Of a stretch of 64,000 nt of DNA, positions 17,571 through 21,186 are shown piece after piece; the stretch's first letter is position 1; each line of letters starts with the position of its first letter. The DNA lies in the NCBI RefSeq assembly GCF_032484785.1, contig NZ_JAUETR010000002.1, positions 930,001-994,000 of the forward strand. The letters are read 5' to 3'. This DNA comes from Bradyrhizobium sp. SZCCHNS1050. Its GTDB lineage: Bacteria > Pseudomonadota > Alphaproteobacteria > Rhizobiales > Xanthobacteraceae. The position numbers were made by a program, and so were the translations under genes. Below the pieces are notes generated by a model, which saw nothing but the letters and a program-made list of their open reading frames with translations, ran no database searches and was not told the origin of the DNA.

Positions 17571-17737
17571 ATGAGCGAGACGATGTCCTTCGGCTACGAA
17601 CACTTCATCCGCACGTCCAACGGCGTCATGCCGGTGGATGGCGCACGCCATGCTCGGGGGAGCGATCTTGCTTGAGGCAAGATCAACAGTCCGCATCACA
17701 CGGACCCTCCCGAGCCAGCCGCTCCGGAGGGTTTTTT
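17571..17737 (+). other. Leader-like segment: short ORF, competing hairpins and intrinsic terminator
   Basis: A 34-codon ORF (ATG 17571, TGA 17673-17675; begins MSETMSFGYEHF) ends inside the hairpin GATCTTGC-TTGAG-GCAAGATC (17664-17684). A second hairpin, GTCCG/CGGAC, spans 17689-17705. CCCTCC (17705-17710) pairs with GGAGGG (17726-17731), followed by six T: a good intrinsic terminator. The competing pairing GCTCGGG (17652-17658) with CCCGAGC (17709-17715) would destroy that terminator. This is the layout of an attenuator, but the ORF lacks a clear ribosome-binding site. Confidence 0.4.
17705..17737 (+). terminator. Intrinsic terminator
   Basis: Stem CCCTCC/GGAGGG with an inner AGC/GCT pair (17713-17715 with 17721-17723), followed by T6 at 17732-17737. 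It separates the leader segment from the Y-RNA-like cluster. Confidence 0.75.
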
Positions 17738-17740
17738 GTT

Positions 17741-17988
17741 GCCCTCAGGCGAACCGGCTGCACGGCGAAACCAACGGAAGTCCCGGCCTTGGGCCGGAAA
17801 GGGAGACCCGGATCCCGGGGCTCGCGCAGGTGATGCGCGCGGCCCGAGCGCGCGGGGCCTGTCGGAGGGAACGAGGCGGCAACGCCGGACACCGATGACA
17901 GAGCGAGCTTCAAGGAGCTCGCAACATGCGGCGCCGAAGAGCGCCGCAGACAAGCTATTTGAATTCCCGGCCGCTTGCGGCCGGGAGC
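17741..17988 (+). other. Strongly structured non-coding stretch before the Y-RNA-like units
   Basis: No frame in these 248 bases looks like a protein. Three strong hairpins stand in a row near its 3' end: GCGAGCT/AGCTCGC (17903-17922), GCGGCGC/GCGCCGC (17928-17947) and CCCGGCCG-CTTG-CGGCCGGG (17966-17985). The last ends 3 nt before the first Y-RNA-like unit. The 5' half is very G+C-rich with further possible stems around 17780-17860. It may be the 5' part of a long precursor, a separate small RNA, or a genomic repeat. Confidence 0.5.
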
Positions 17989-18170
17989 TGCTGGTGGTGA
18001 AGGTGTCGGCTCCTTCGTGCCATTGGTGATGCGGGTTCGAATCCCGCCTATGGCGTCACGTACCGTGGAGGCGGCCATGCGAGGGCCGTCGTGTCGCGGG
18101 TTGCGGTTGTTCTTCTTTCGGATGACCTGCGTTGGCGTCATTGATCGCCGAGACCGCCTGTTCCCCAGCA
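17989..18170 (+). ncRNA. Y-RNA-like unit A (T-arm-like hairpin only)
   Basis: The ends pair: TGCTGG (17989-17994) with CCAGCA (18165-18170), then GGTG (17996-17999) with CGCC (18155-18158), then GTC-GGC (18005-18010) with GCC-GA-GAC (18147-18154). GTGGTGAAG (17994) is followed 19 nt later by CTTCG (18013), as in the other units; the 3' CGC...TTCCC box is at 18155-18165. The body holds a textbook tRNA T-arm, GCGGG-TTCGAAT-CCCGC (18031-18047), flanked by GCCAT/ATGGC (18019-18023, 18050-18054). No D-arm is seen. It is the most diverged and longest copy. Confidence 0.6.
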
Positions 18171-18207
18171 TGCCATCAACGCCACTCGGTGACCGCCGGG
18201 CGGCCAA

Positions 18208-18286
18208 GGCGGTGGTGAAGATGTCTGTTACTTCGTTGAAACCGAGCGCCCCATTGGGGCAGCGACAGCATCGCTTATTCCCCGCC
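18208..18286 (+). ncRNA. Y-RNA-like unit B (minimal, no tRNA-like head)
   Basis: About 79 nt. GGCGG (18208-18212) pairs with CCGCC (18282-18286), and GGTGA (18214-18218) pairs with TCGCT (18271-18275) using wobbles. After the bulge AGA, TGT-TG (18222-18227, one bulged C) pairs with CAGCA (18266-18270). The GTGGTGAAG/CTTCG boxes keep the 19-nt step (18212, 18231), and TTCCC is at 18278. The head is a single hairpin GCCCC-ATT-GGGGC (18248-18260), with no T- or D-arm. It looks like a bare Ro-binding stem. Confidence 0.6.
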
Positions 18287-18296
18287 GAACGTATCC

Positions 18297-18448
18297 ACGA
18301 GCCGTGGTGAAGACGACTGTTACTTCGCCTTGCACGCCAGAGGTCGCGGGTTCGACTCCCGCCCGGTGTCCTGCCGGTAGCTCAGAGGTCAGAGCGCTGT
18401 CCGGTCTCTCAGCGACCGGGTCTCAGTCGTCGCCTGTTCCCGGCTCGT
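18297..18448 (+). ncRNA. Y-RNA-like unit C with permuted tRNA-like head
   Basis: ACGAGCCG (18297-18304) pairs exactly with CGGCTCGT (18441-18448), and GGTGA (18306-18310) with TCGCC (18430-18434). The bulge AGA is followed by CGACTG (18314-18319) with CAGTCG (18424-18429). The head reads T-arm GCGGG-TTCGACT-CCCGC (18346-18362), acceptor-like CCGG/CCGG closed by TGTCCTG (18363-18377), and D-arm GCTC-AGAGGTCA-GAGC (18380-18395). A further hairpin is CCGGTC/GACCGG (18401-18419). This is the bacterial YrlA-type architecture: the Ro-binding stem replaces the anticodon arm and the acceptor is closed. Confidence 0.8.
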
Positions 18449-18528
18449 GATCCATCTCAACCGGTGACCCTCATCGAACAGGCGGTCACGTCGTTACGGC
18501 GCAGCTACCTGCTGCGCCGCCTTCTTCC

Positions 18529-18686
18529 ACGCGCCGTGGTGAAGAGTGCTGATACTTCGATTGCGGATCGAGAGGTCGTGGGTTCGACTCCCATCCGGCG
18601 TTCCATGCGCCGGTAGCTCAGCGGCAGAGCACTATCCGCTCCATGCCAGTGGAGCGGAACTCAGCATTCGCCCGTTCCCGGCGCGT
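18529..18686 (+). ncRNA. Y-RNA-like unit D with permuted tRNA-like head
   Basis: ACGCGCCG (18529-18536) pairs with CGGCGCGT (18679-18686), and GGTGAA (18538-18543) with TTCGCC (18667-18672). The bulge GAG is followed by TGCTGA (18547-18552) with TCAGCA (18661-18666). The head has a hairpin TCGAT/ATCGA (18557-18571), T-arm GTGGG-TTCGACT-CCCAT (18578-18594), and acceptor stem CCGGCG/CGCCGG closed by TTCCATG (18595-18613). D-arm GCTC-AGCGGCA-GAGC (18616-18630) and hairpin CCGCTCC/GGAGCGG (18636-18657) follow. It ends 96 bp before rsr. The spacer before it has a separate 9-bp hairpin (18497-18519). Confidence 0.82.
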
Positions 18687-18781
18687 GGTCCCCTGCCGCG
18701 CATGGTCTCCGAGACGAGATCATGCGTGACAGCCGGTGCTCCGGCCATTCCATCCATCATCAACCCAGAGAGGAGGCCATC

Positions 18782-20122
18782 ATGGTCAGGCTCAACAAGT
18801 TCCTGCGCGCCTTCACCCATGAGGGTGCGCCGTCCCGGCAGCTCGCGCCCGAGCAGGCGCTGCAGCGCACGCTGATGAGCTGCCTGCTGTGGGAGGACCA
18901 GTTCTACGAGGACGGGATCGCGATCGCCGAGCGCATCAAGGCGCTGGTGCCGCTGGTCGAGCCGCGCGAGGTGGCTCAGCTCGCGGTCCGTACACGCGAG
19001 GAGATGAAGCTGCGGCATGCGCCGCTGCTCGTCGCCCGCGAGATGGCGCGGCTGCCCACGCACCGTGCGCTGGTCGCCGAGACGCTGTCGCGCATCATCC
19101 AGCGGCCGGACGAGATGACCGAGCTGCTGGCGATCTACTGGGCGGATTCGCTGGGTCCGCAGCAGCAGCGCAAGCGGCAGCCGGTCTCGGCGCAGGTCAA
19201 GAAGGGGCTGGCGAAGGCGTTCGCCAAGTTCGACGCCTATCAGCTCGCGAAGTATGACCGCGAGGGACCGGTGCGGCTTCGCGACGTGCTGTTCCTGGTG
19301 CACGCTCGGCCCAGGGACGCCGCGCAGGAGGCGGTGTGGAAGCAGCTCGCCGATGGCGGGCTGCCGTCACCCGACACCTGGGAGGTCGCGCTCTCGGCCG
19401 GTGCGGACAAGCGCGCGAGCTTCGAGCGGCTGCTCTCGGAGAAGCGGCTCGGAGCGCTGGCGTTGCTGCGCAACCTGCGCCTGATGCAACAGGCCGGGGT
19501 GTCGCGGTCGATTATCGCGGCCGCGATCGAAACGATGCGGACGGACAGGATCCTGCCGTATCGGTTCATCACGGCGGCCCGGCACGCGCCGGACTTCGAG
19601 CCCGAGCTCGAGGCCGCGATGCTCCGGTCGATCAAGGGCTACGCGCGGCTTCCGGGCCGCACGCGGCTGCTGATCGACGTCTCCGGCTCGATGTTCGCAT
19701 CGCTGTCGGCGAAGTCGGAGATGACGCGCGCGGACGCGGCGTGCGGGCTGGCGATCCTGGCCCGCGAGGTCTGCGACGAGGTGGAGATCTTCACGTTCAG
19801 CGACAAGGTCGTGAAGGTGCCGCCGCGGCGTGGCTTTGCGCTGCGCGACGCGATCCTCGGATCGCAGCCGCATTCCGGGACCTATCTCGGGCGTGCGGTG
19901 GGCGAGGTCGACCGCAAGGGAGACCGCCTGATCGTCTTCACCGACGAGCAGAGTCACGATGCGGTGCCGGCGCCCAAGGCGCGCGGGACCATGGTCAACG
20001 TGGCGTCGTACCAGCACGGGGTCGGCTACGGACCCTGGACGCGGGTCGACGGCTTCTCCGAGGCCGTGATCGCCTGGATCGCGGCGCATGAGGAGACTCT
20101 GCGCGGCGCGACCCTGCACTGA
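18782..20122 (+). CDS. rsr: Ro60-orthologue TROVE-domain protein
   Basis: The 446-residue protein starts at ATG 18782 behind a strong GAGAGGAGG. Residues ~1-290 are the helical TROVE ring (LNKFLRAFTHEGAP; LRDVLFLVHARP; SEKRLGALALLRNLRLMQQAGVS; ILPYRFITAAR). Residues ~300-446 are a von Willebrand A fold with a complete metal site: DVSGS, then T in HSGTYLG, then D in VFTDEQS. Bacterial Ro (Rsr) binds Y RNAs and misfolded RNA and works with exonucleases in stress RNA decay and rRNA maturation. The Y-RNA-like units upstream match that role. No rtcB/rtcA genes are in the window. Confidence 0.93.
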   Translation: MVRLNKFLRAFTHEGAPSRQLAPEQALQRTLMSCLLWEDQFYEDGIAIAERIKALVPLVEPREVAQLAVRTREEMKLRHAPLLVAREMARLPTHRALVAETLSRIIQRPDEMTELLAIYWADSLGPQQQRKRQPVSAQVKKGLAKAFAKFDAYQLAKYDREGPVRLRDVLFLVHARPRDAAQEAVWKQLADGGLPSPDTWEVALSAGADKRASFERLLSEKRLGALALLRNLRLMQQAGVSRSIIAAAIETMRTDRILPYRFITAARHAPDFEPELEAAMLRSIKGYARLPGRTRLLIDVSGSMFASLSAKSEMTRADAACGLAILAREVCDEVEIFTFSDKVVKVPPRRGFALRDAILGSQPHSGTYLGRAVGEVDRKGDRLIVFTDEQSHDAVPAPKARGTMVNVASYQHGVGYGPWTRVDGFSEAVIAWIAAHEETLRGATLH

Positions 20123-20126
20123 CGAC

Positions 20127-20168
20127 AACGGACCCGGACGCGTCACGGACGCGCCCGGGTCTTCCGTT
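20127..20168. terminator. Hairpin terminator between rsr and the convergent phosphodiesterase gene
   Basis: AACGGA (20127-20132) pairs with TCCGTT (20163-20168), enclosing CCCGG-type arms and CGCG/CGCG around a TCACGGA loop. It begins 4 bp after the rsr stop and lies downstream of both converging genes, so it probably acts in both directions. There is no long T-run. Confidence 0.55.
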
Positions 20169-20205
20169 AACCAGGCACATTCGGCGCCGACTTGCGCTGC
20201 TTGCT

Positions 20206-21186
20206 TCAAGGCGTCTGCTTCAGCAGCGGCGCCACGGTTTCGATCTCGTCGGTCATGACGCCGCCGGTAAAGTTCTTGGGCAACCTGGCGATGTCGTCCG
20301 GTGTGTCCAGCCCGGCCGAGAACGCCTCACCACTATAGGAGCCGACGACGAAGACGCTGCTTTCGGCGCGCGTCATGCGCGCGAGGAATCGGTCCGGCCA
20401 GCCCCACAGCCACGGCGCGACATTGATCGGGACCAGCACCATCATGTTGTGGCACGCGGACGGCACCAGGCCGGTCCAGCCATAGCCGAGATAACGGACC
20501 AGGCAGCTCTTCAGCATGCCGCGCGACATGACCTTGAGATCCGGCAGAGACGCCCTGAGCGTCGCGATCGGCGCGTCGCCGCCATAGACCGTCAGTCGCG
20601 CCCGTCGCGCGCCAGGCAAGCGCGCCAGAGCATCCGCCAGCAGTCGGCCTTCCGCCGGATCATTGCTCTTGACGTTGATCAGGAAAGCCTTGTCCGGAAA
20701 GGCTGCGAGCACCTCGTCCAGCGACGGCATCAGGCCGACGCCCTTGCCGCGGAATGGAAAGGTGCGGCCGCCATCGGCGGTGTAGCCATAACCGATATCG
20801 AGCTGCCGCAACGCCGTCATCGCATGCTCGCGCGTGACGCCCTTGCCATCGGTGCGACAGTCGAGCGTCCAGTCATGGAACACCGCGAACTGGCCATCGG
20901 TGGTTGGGTGCACGTCGAATTCCACGATATCGGCGCCGGCCAGAAAGCTGGCGTGCATCGAGGCGATGGTGTTCTCGAGATACTCATGCGTCGGCGGCAG
21001 CATCCGCGCCGCGGTGCAGGTTTCGCTCGTCAGGCCGGTGCGATCGAACTGCTGTGACAAACCGCGATGAGCCAGAACGATCGCCTGTCCAGCAGTTTTC
21101 GACACCAGCAAGCTGGTGTTGTTGACGAACATGAAGCCGACGCACAGCAATGCCGTCACGCCGGCGCATTTCCAGAATCTGCTCAT
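20206..21186 (-). CDS. Membrane-anchored/exported glycerophosphodiester phosphodiesterase family protein
   Basis: From ATG 21186 (GGCGGGG upstream) the protein has 326 residues. An N-terminal hydrophobic segment (ALLCVGFMFVNN) suggests export or anchoring. Catalytic GDPD motifs are present: LAHRGLS, then ENTIASMHAS, GADIVEFDVHPTTDG and AVFHDWTLD (metal-binding Glu/Asp and the general-base His). It should hydrolyse glycerophosphodiesters to sn-glycerol 3-phosphate, though the C-terminal half is diverged. It is convergent with rsr. Confidence 0.88.
   Translation of the reverse strand: MSRFWKCAGVTALLCVGFMFVNNTSLLVSKTAGQAIVLAHRGLSQQFDRTGLTSETCTAARMLPPTHEYLENTIASMHASFLAGADIVEFDVHPTTDGQFAVFHDWTLDCRTDGKGVTREHAMTALRQLDIGYGYTADGGRTFPFRGKGVGLMPSLDEVLAAFPDKAFLINVKSNDPAEGRLLADALARLPGARRARLTVYGGDAPIATLRASLPDLKVMSRGMLKSCLVRYLGYGWTGLVPSACHNMMVLVPINVAPWLWGWPDRFLARMTRAESSVFVVGSYSGEAFSAGLDTPDDIARLPKNFTGGVMTDEIETVAPLLKQTP

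Follow-up and report, generated by a model that had tools for sequence, protein, structure and literature searches.

In known bacterial systems, the stem of the Y RNA binds Rsr, and the transfer RNA (tRNA)-like domain of the molecule both binds PNPase and undergoes modification by tRNA enzymes (PMC8394870; PMC4726728). The tRNA mimic of YrlA has D, T, and acceptor arms (PMC8394870). The rsr operon of Salmonella is reported to respond to tRNAs cleaved within the anticodon loop; the Salmonella YrlA mimic is reported not to be cut by the anticodon nuclease and was proposed as a potential competitive inhibitor of it (PMC7790460). Here we describe an rsr locus in a 64,000-nucleotide (nt) stretch of the Bradyrhizobium sp. 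SZCCHNS1050 genome (contig NZ_JAUETR010000002.1, positions 930,001 to 994,000; the whole stretch is called the window below). Four Y-RNA-like units, spanning positions 17985-18688, lie upstream of a Ro60-type gene (rsr), and two of them appear to enclose a four-armed tRNA in permuted order, anticodon arm included. The predicted elements are as follows.

17985..18174, plus strand: Y RNA unit 1, with a short Rsr-type stem, a T-arm-like hairpin, and a conserved non-tRNA module (boxes; alignment A3 of 20 sequences; consensus fold).
18203..18291, plus strand: Y RNA unit 2, a mini-Y RNA of 89 nt without T, D, and acceptor arms (boxes; fold).
18295..18450, plus strand: Y RNA unit 3, an Rsr-type stem around a permuted tRNA plus a further hairpin (fold; boxes; covariation).
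18527..18688, plus strand: Y RNA unit 4, an Rsr-type stem around a permuted tRNA plus a further hairpin (fold z of -5.2; boxes; covariation).
18782..20119, plus strand: rsr, Ro60-type, 446 amino acids, with a TROVE domain and a weak vWA match (PF05731, E 3.7e-18; alignment of relatives).

A first-pass annotation, made from the letters of the window, had claimed four units, each with GTGGTGAAG and a CTTCG at a fixed distance, with 3′ boxes, and with ends that differ between copies and still pair. GTGGTGAAG was found exactly as claimed, at 17994, 18212, 18304, and 18536, and in every case CTTCG begins exactly 19 nt on. Across the 7.62-Mb genome, GTGGTGAAG-N10-CTTCG is matched without mismatch at these four places only (five more places have one mismatch), and the reversed control pattern has no match there. 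The 3′ boxes (CGC, with TTCCC 6 nt further on) and the differing yet complementary end sequences were likewise confirmed.

For comparison, 81 loci were used (the window and the best 80 of 112 relatives), and units were located by sequence boxes alone. A total of 217 units was found in 72 loci, nine loci having no unit under the box rule; 21 more 5′ boxes without a matching 3′ box were excluded from this count. Box spacing was near-invariant (213 of 217 units). At least five of six outer-helix positions were paired in 154 of 217 units with their true partners vs. 41 of 476 combinations with a partner from another unit of the same locus, and pairing fell to 0-3% when the helix was slid by 1-3 nt. 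The four-unit pattern with paired ends is not due to chance, and the compensatory change that the annotation had read in the four units holds across the relatives, both in the outer helix and in the full structure (see below). The reading of the locus as an expanded set of Y RNAs needs a qualification: four units with one Ro protein are indeed present; however, the set is not peculiar to this genome. Three units per locus are commonest (42 of the 72 loci), followed by four (15), two (12), one (two loci), and five (one locus). Multi-unit expansion is typical of the lineage, with three or four units in 57 of 72 loci.

The ends pair in a bulged stem, as expected of bacterial Y RNAs. All nine outer pairs show two-sided changes, and 86.5% of cells are paired, with the outermost pair open in 17 of the 33 full-length units. 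Units 3 and 4 have a strong outer stem (8-9 base pairs, bp), and units 1 and 2 a short one (4-5 bp). Fold energies relative to shuffles gave z values of -1.6 for unit 1, which is unremarkable, -2.4 for unit 2, -2.7 for unit 3, and -5.2 for unit 4. Judged by these sequence features, the units class as putative bacterial Y RNAs.

A single order of parts was recognized in units 3 and 4. Starting from CUUCG, it runs through position 26, the anticodon arm (27-43), the variable region (44-48, AGGUC), the T arm (49-65), one acceptor strand (66-72), a linker, the other acceptor strand (1-7), U8-A9, and the D arm (10-25). The invariant CUUCG (positions 26-30) can be read as the anticodon stem's 5′ strand. 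The T, acceptor, and D arms that characterize YrlA are present in units 3 and 4, and they are absent from unit 2. The two permuted tRNAs are placed as follows, each from the tRNA register and a tRNA call on the re-ordered sequence.

18323..18396, plus strand: permuted tRNA of unit 3, in the order 26, 27-72, a 1-nt linker, 1-26.
18555..18631, plus strand: permuted tRNA of unit 4, in the order 26, 27-73, CCA, U, 1-26.

The anticodon arm of unit 3 has four of five pairs and the loop CUUGCAC; that of unit 4 has five of five and the loop UUGCGGA. A T loop lies at the exact tRNA distance from CUUCG in 54 of the 217 units, which is the commonest distance (the next has 20 units), and is absent by motif in 51. 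Selection of the 54 used only CUUCG (26-30) and the T-loop letters, and of these units, 51 have U33, 51 have A37, and 43 form all five anticodon pairs. In 33 of these 54, counted over the full-length structure (40 pairs), 91.5% of cells are paired vs. a shuffled mean of 79.9%; cells with two-sided change number 144 vs. 46.0 (0 of 500 shuffles as high), and pairs with two-sided change 17 vs. 13.2 (2 of 500 as high). Slid structures were 35-44% paired, a control that favors the true structure because it was defined from the same sequences. In 38 distinct cores (from 39 of the 54 units), 98.0% of cells are paired, and two of five measures stayed within the range of the shuffles (pairs with change, 127 of 500; pair types, 253 of 500). 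When the parts were put into linear order and CCA was added, a tRNA was called in 54 of 54 modules, as against none of 54 as found (CUUCG to 3′ box) and none of 540 shuffles. We hold the permuted four-armed tRNA architecture, as a class, with high confidence.

The anticodon arm was examined with a register test that took in every T-acceptor-D module in the loci, on both strands and without requiring CUUCG. Among 125 permuted modules from 75 cellular loci, at least four of five anticodon-stem pairs form in 79 at the tRNA register vs. 1-28 at shifts of 1-5. Counting distinct cellular arms, 41 of 69 pair, compared with a mean of 14.9 and a maximum of 24 over 500 re-dealings. The same was observed in viral contigs, where pairing at the tRNA register is seen in 19 of 35 modules vs. 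0-11 at shifts, and in 18 of 32 distinct arms vs. a mean of 6.6 and a maximum of 12 over 500 re-dealings. Slightly different rules listed 128 cellular modules, 79 with the arm and 49 without. Loop identity follows pairing, U33 being present in 73 and A37 in 64 of the 79 arms with at least four pairs vs. 17 and 20 of the 49 modules without an arm. Within the 38 distinct cores, the arm is 93.7% paired vs. 82.8% in shuffles, with a covariation score of 0.278 vs. 0.085 (0 of 500). An alternative hairpin, 30-33/44-47, to which the fold of unit 3 had pointed, was rejected (covariation 0.126 vs. 0.140 in shuffles and no two-sided change). The arm is common among Bradyrhizobium and other Alphaproteobacteria; among Acidobacteria-type loci (L073, L076-L082), it was seen only in L077.

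Changes in the arm were traced on the rsr tree with 36 orthologues of unit 3, taking from each Bradyrhizobium-side locus its first four-armed unit (L006, where only unit 4 was found, was left out). Pair 31-39 changed at least eight times and always remained paired; in the 38 distinct cores it is A-U in 17, C-G in 17, and U-A in four, with no mismatches. The anticodon triplet changed at least 17 times, with 10, 13, and 11 changes at positions 34, 35, and 36, compared with none at 33, one at 37, two at 32, and none at 27-30. Third codon positions of rsr changed 3.5 times on average (95th percentile 9), and its 144 four-fold sites 4.2 times (95th percentile 11). All three triplet sites lie above the third-position 95th percentile of 9. 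Positive selection on the triplet was not upheld, one of its sites lying below the four-fold 95th percentile of 11, one at it, and one above it; two inner-helix positions (10 and 9 changes) and D-loop positions (up to 13, where lengths vary) are equally variable. The frame of the loop (U33, A37, and the stem) is kept, with the triplet free or diversifying. Given a constant frame around a changing triplet, recognition of the arm is probably by shape, and the arm is probably not used for decoding.

This turnover bears on whether the units could be permuted tRNA genes that yield a functional, decoding tRNA. Every tRNA position is present, and the modules are called as tRNAs once linear; however, a linear cloverleaf with a fixed anticodon was not found, the order being permuted and the triplet too changeable among the orthologues for fixed decoding. 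The best identity to the genome's own tRNAs is only 0.69 for unit 3 and 0.71 for unit 4 (31 tRNA sequences from 30 of 49 places in the genome were compared), and recent duplication of a tRNA was rejected on the same values. A decoding role is very improbable. ARAGORN also called a tRNA-Arg(gcg) at 18531-18605, which was rejected, as its acceptor stem is the outer Y stem of unit 4; automatic annotation of the lineage may carry such false tRNAs.

The units differ in module content, and the anticodon-like hairpin also occurs by itself. Two further elements were placed in units 1 and 2.

18232..18246, plus strand: anticodon-arm-like hairpin of unit 2, 4 bp with the 7-nt loop UUGAAAC (mini-unit hairpin scan; a 3-bp version with the same loop is in the minimum-energy fold).
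18060..18110, plus strand: conserved module of unit 1, GUACCGUGGAG and the sequence following it (alignment A3, Bradyrhizobium and Hyphomonadaceae).

Twenty mini units (up to 100 nt) were scanned at CUUCG in two registers, of which the better was counted, and a 7-nt loop on a stem of at least 4 bp was present in 14; U33 and A37 are each present in 13 of the 14, which include unit 2. Since this hairpin stands alone in mini units, the anticodon-like arm would be a module of its own. The consensus fold of the unit 1 class (20 sequences) has 35 pairs, 20 of them with two-sided changes, and no known family was recognized for its module at 18060-18110 in a lax Rfam search. As read from sequence, then, unit 2 offers a lone anticodon-like hairpin, unit 1 a T-arm-like hairpin with a non-tRNA module, and units 3 and 4 the four-armed mimic.

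Rfam at gathering score gave no match in the window or in the loci of six relatives. In a lax search, the YrlA family (RF02553) matched units 3 and 4 with E values of 9.5e-8 and 6.8e-7 (42.4 and 39.4 bits vs. a gathering score of 69); sub-gathering matches to unrelated Rfam families were taken as chance. The match to YrlA is consistent with a plainer explanation, namely that these are ordinary YrlA-type Y RNAs in which the functional mimic consists of the T, D, and acceptor arms and positions 27-43 are a spacer or are folded otherwise. The published mimic has those three arms (PMC8394870), and an arm in register is lacking from 46 of the 125 cellular and 16 of the 35 viral modules. Single-sequence folding points in the same direction: at least four of five arm pairs are in the minimum-energy fold of 23 of 54 units, so that most of the arm is missing in 31, and none are present in 29; the T stem is present in 52 of 54. 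Mean pair probability of the arm exceeds 0.5 in 10 of 54 units; it is 0.77 in unit 4, where the arm is in the predicted fold, and 0.004 in unit 3, where it is not. Mini units folded singly show at least three hairpin pairs in 8 of 20.

Other observations likewise weigh against the explanation that we favor below. All two-sided changes of the arm in the 38 distinct cores fall at pair 31-39, and the triplet may change fast simply because it is unconstrained. ARAGORN still called 495 of 540 modules in which the anticodon arm had been shuffled; the linear reading therefore backs the cloverleaf and not the anticodon arm. The inner Y helix is the weakest helix (73.9% of cells paired in the 33 full units). 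A simple scan of 17600-20300 detected no sigma-70-like promoter, and three terminator-like sites lie in that interval, one of them inside unit 1.

Against the spacer explanation stand the U33 and A37 counts in paired arms, the lack of covariation in the alternative hairpin, and the occurrence of the anticodon-like hairpin alone in mini units. We give it a real but minority weight. The anticodon arm rests on sequence comparison, not on energy, and a tRNA fold could hold the arm by tertiary contacts, which the folding program ignores. The fold check lowered our confidence, slightly for the architecture of the class and somewhat more for the arm of unit 3, which we still consider fairly probable.

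The acceptor end gives a further likeness to tRNA, and one more element was placed there.

18602..18606, plus strand: linker UCCAU between the acceptor strands of unit 4, which reads as N73-C-C-A plus U-1 (sequence reading).

Among the 79 four-armed modules, all seven acceptor pairs are present in 63, a 5-nt linker in 48, NCCA after position 72 in 32, and the exact NCCAU in 28; the corresponding numbers for the 49 other modules are 13, 3, 2, and 1. The linker of unit 4 resembles a pre-tRNA junction. It could be that the unit is a pre-tRNA mimic, cut by RNase P between U-1 and G1 to give a two-piece RNA with a free CCA end for binding or charging; the two-piece transfer-messenger RNA (tmRNA) would be its analogue. 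The counts of NCCA, NCCAU, and complete acceptor stems favor such processing. However, the exact NCCAU is mostly from Bradyrhizobium loci and may be one inherited state, unit 3 has a linker of a single C, and the viral modules listed mostly have short closed loops and no CCA. We regard the pre-tRNA explanation as unlikely.

The association of the units with rsr was observed across the genus. The first-pass annotation had named the neighboring gene as Ro60-type, which the TROVE match bears out; the vWA_Ro60 match is below the cut-off, and two related PDB chains are both named TROVE domain-containing protein. The start at 18782 was set by alignment, the relatives being 91-93% identical and aligned from residue 1, while the longest open reading frame starts at 18722. 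The protein was matched in 42 of 146 Bradyrhizobium genomes, and the strict unit pattern was found in 39 of these 42 vs. none of the 104 rsr-negative genomes (84 unlisted rsr-negatives were taken as the same genomes in both surveys, the 146 having been drawn alike). The three rsr-positive genomes without strict units are G433 (two distant rsr copies, 52-53% identical), G450 (a 39-residue remnant), and G511 (partial, with stops). Unit and rsr come and go together.

The annotation had also noted no rtcBA in view. None was seen in the stretch that was read, the whole window not having been scanned for RtcA; RtcB homologues do exist outside the window. RtcB-family matches were found far from rsr in the same genome, at C1:1755630-1756640 and C2:1500003-1500728.

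Relatives of this Rsr are encoded on 381 of 447 candidate viral-contig stretches. Eighty stretches were kept (L156-L235), and these hold the 35 permuted tRNA modules, 19 with the anticodon arm, that were counted above.

The permuted-tRNA model R1, built from units 3 and 4 among others (77.4 and 87.3 bits, respectively), hits 254 of the 289 genomes of the class, mostly, it is assumed, at neighboring real tRNA genes. With so many genomes hit, R1 alone was dropped as a detector, and modules in rsr loci were used instead. The same count could be taken to mean that the units have no function and are relics of tandem tRNA genes that lie before rsr by chance. Covariation of the Y stem and the arm, conservation in relatives and in viral contigs, and co-occurrence with rsr argue against relics, and we consider this explanation exceedingly improbable.

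The order of the parts, their covariation, their conservation, and the co-occurrence with rsr are established by sequence comparison. Our best explanation, held with slightly more belief than doubt, is that one Rsr works with four Y RNAs that share an Rsr-type stem and differ in their outer modules. The common stem would bind Rsr, as in known Y RNAs, and the units would form a set of interchangeable adapters bringing Rsr to tRNA-handling proteins; by analogy, the adapter role itself is probable. PNPase is the known partner elsewhere, and anticodon-arm enzymes would be the likely partners of the new arm. We suggest tentatively that the arm is a decoy or bait for such enzymes, its shape probably being what is read. 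The fullest version, in which the units are tRNA impostors on Rsr whose arms, lone or in permuted tRNAs, act as decoys for, or sensors of, enzymes targeting tRNA anticodon loops for cleavage or modification, is doubtful. If it were true, the turnover of the triplet in a fixed loop frame and the viral arms would reflect a phage-bacteria conflict over tRNA targeting. Anticodon-arm enzymes become candidate readers of the mimic beside PNPase, and the units would offer a loop that an anticodon nuclease would see.

Known bacterial Y RNAs mimic a tRNA in part; in the present units the mimicry looks complete, with an anticodon arm that has the canonical loop frame and, in unit 4 and 32 of 79 four-armed modules, an NCCA end. 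As in YrlA (RF02553; Salmonella), the units are encoded beside rsr, their ends pair, and the T, acceptor, and D arms are permuted, with the acceptor strands joined by a loop. Unlike YrlA, units 3 and 4 have an anticodon arm as well, its loop being 7 nt long, and their Y stem joins the tRNA between positions 26 and 27; the Rfam consensus of YrlA has no anticodon hairpin and, as we read it, places the closing stem where the anticodon stem would be. A YrlA-type match was observed in L087 (474-602, minus strand; 63.8 bits, below gathering), a genome belonging to the same phylum; where the anticodon arm would lie, the match has an insert that could fold as a hairpin of 3 bp with the loop CUUUUAA; intermediates between YrlA and the four-armed form may exist, to judge from this insert.

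The two-piece (permuted) tmRNA of Alphaproteobacteria has permuted tRNA parts and loop-joined acceptor strands, as in units 3 and 4. However, no tmRNA was detected in the window, either by Rfam at gathering score or by ARAGORN, and an Rsr-type stem is present instead. In permuted tRNA genes of algae and archaea, the 3′ tRNA part precedes the 5′ part, as in units 3 and 4; here, in contrast, the triplet is not conserved and the tRNA is embedded in a Y RNA stem. The Y RNA of Deinococcus radiodurans, which acts in RYPER (Rsr-Y RNA-PNPase), also goes with a Ro60-type protein, and an adapter role is expected by analogy; that system differs in that one DrY RNA is named (PMC4726728), as against four units with differing modules here. 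No description of an anticodon arm in a Y RNA was found in the parts of the literature searched. Bacterial Y RNAs with a tRNA-like domain are known; within the scope of that search and of the Rfam consensus, the provisionally new features are the anticodon arm, a Y stem entering at 26/27, an NCCA linker, and lone-arm mini-Y RNAs.

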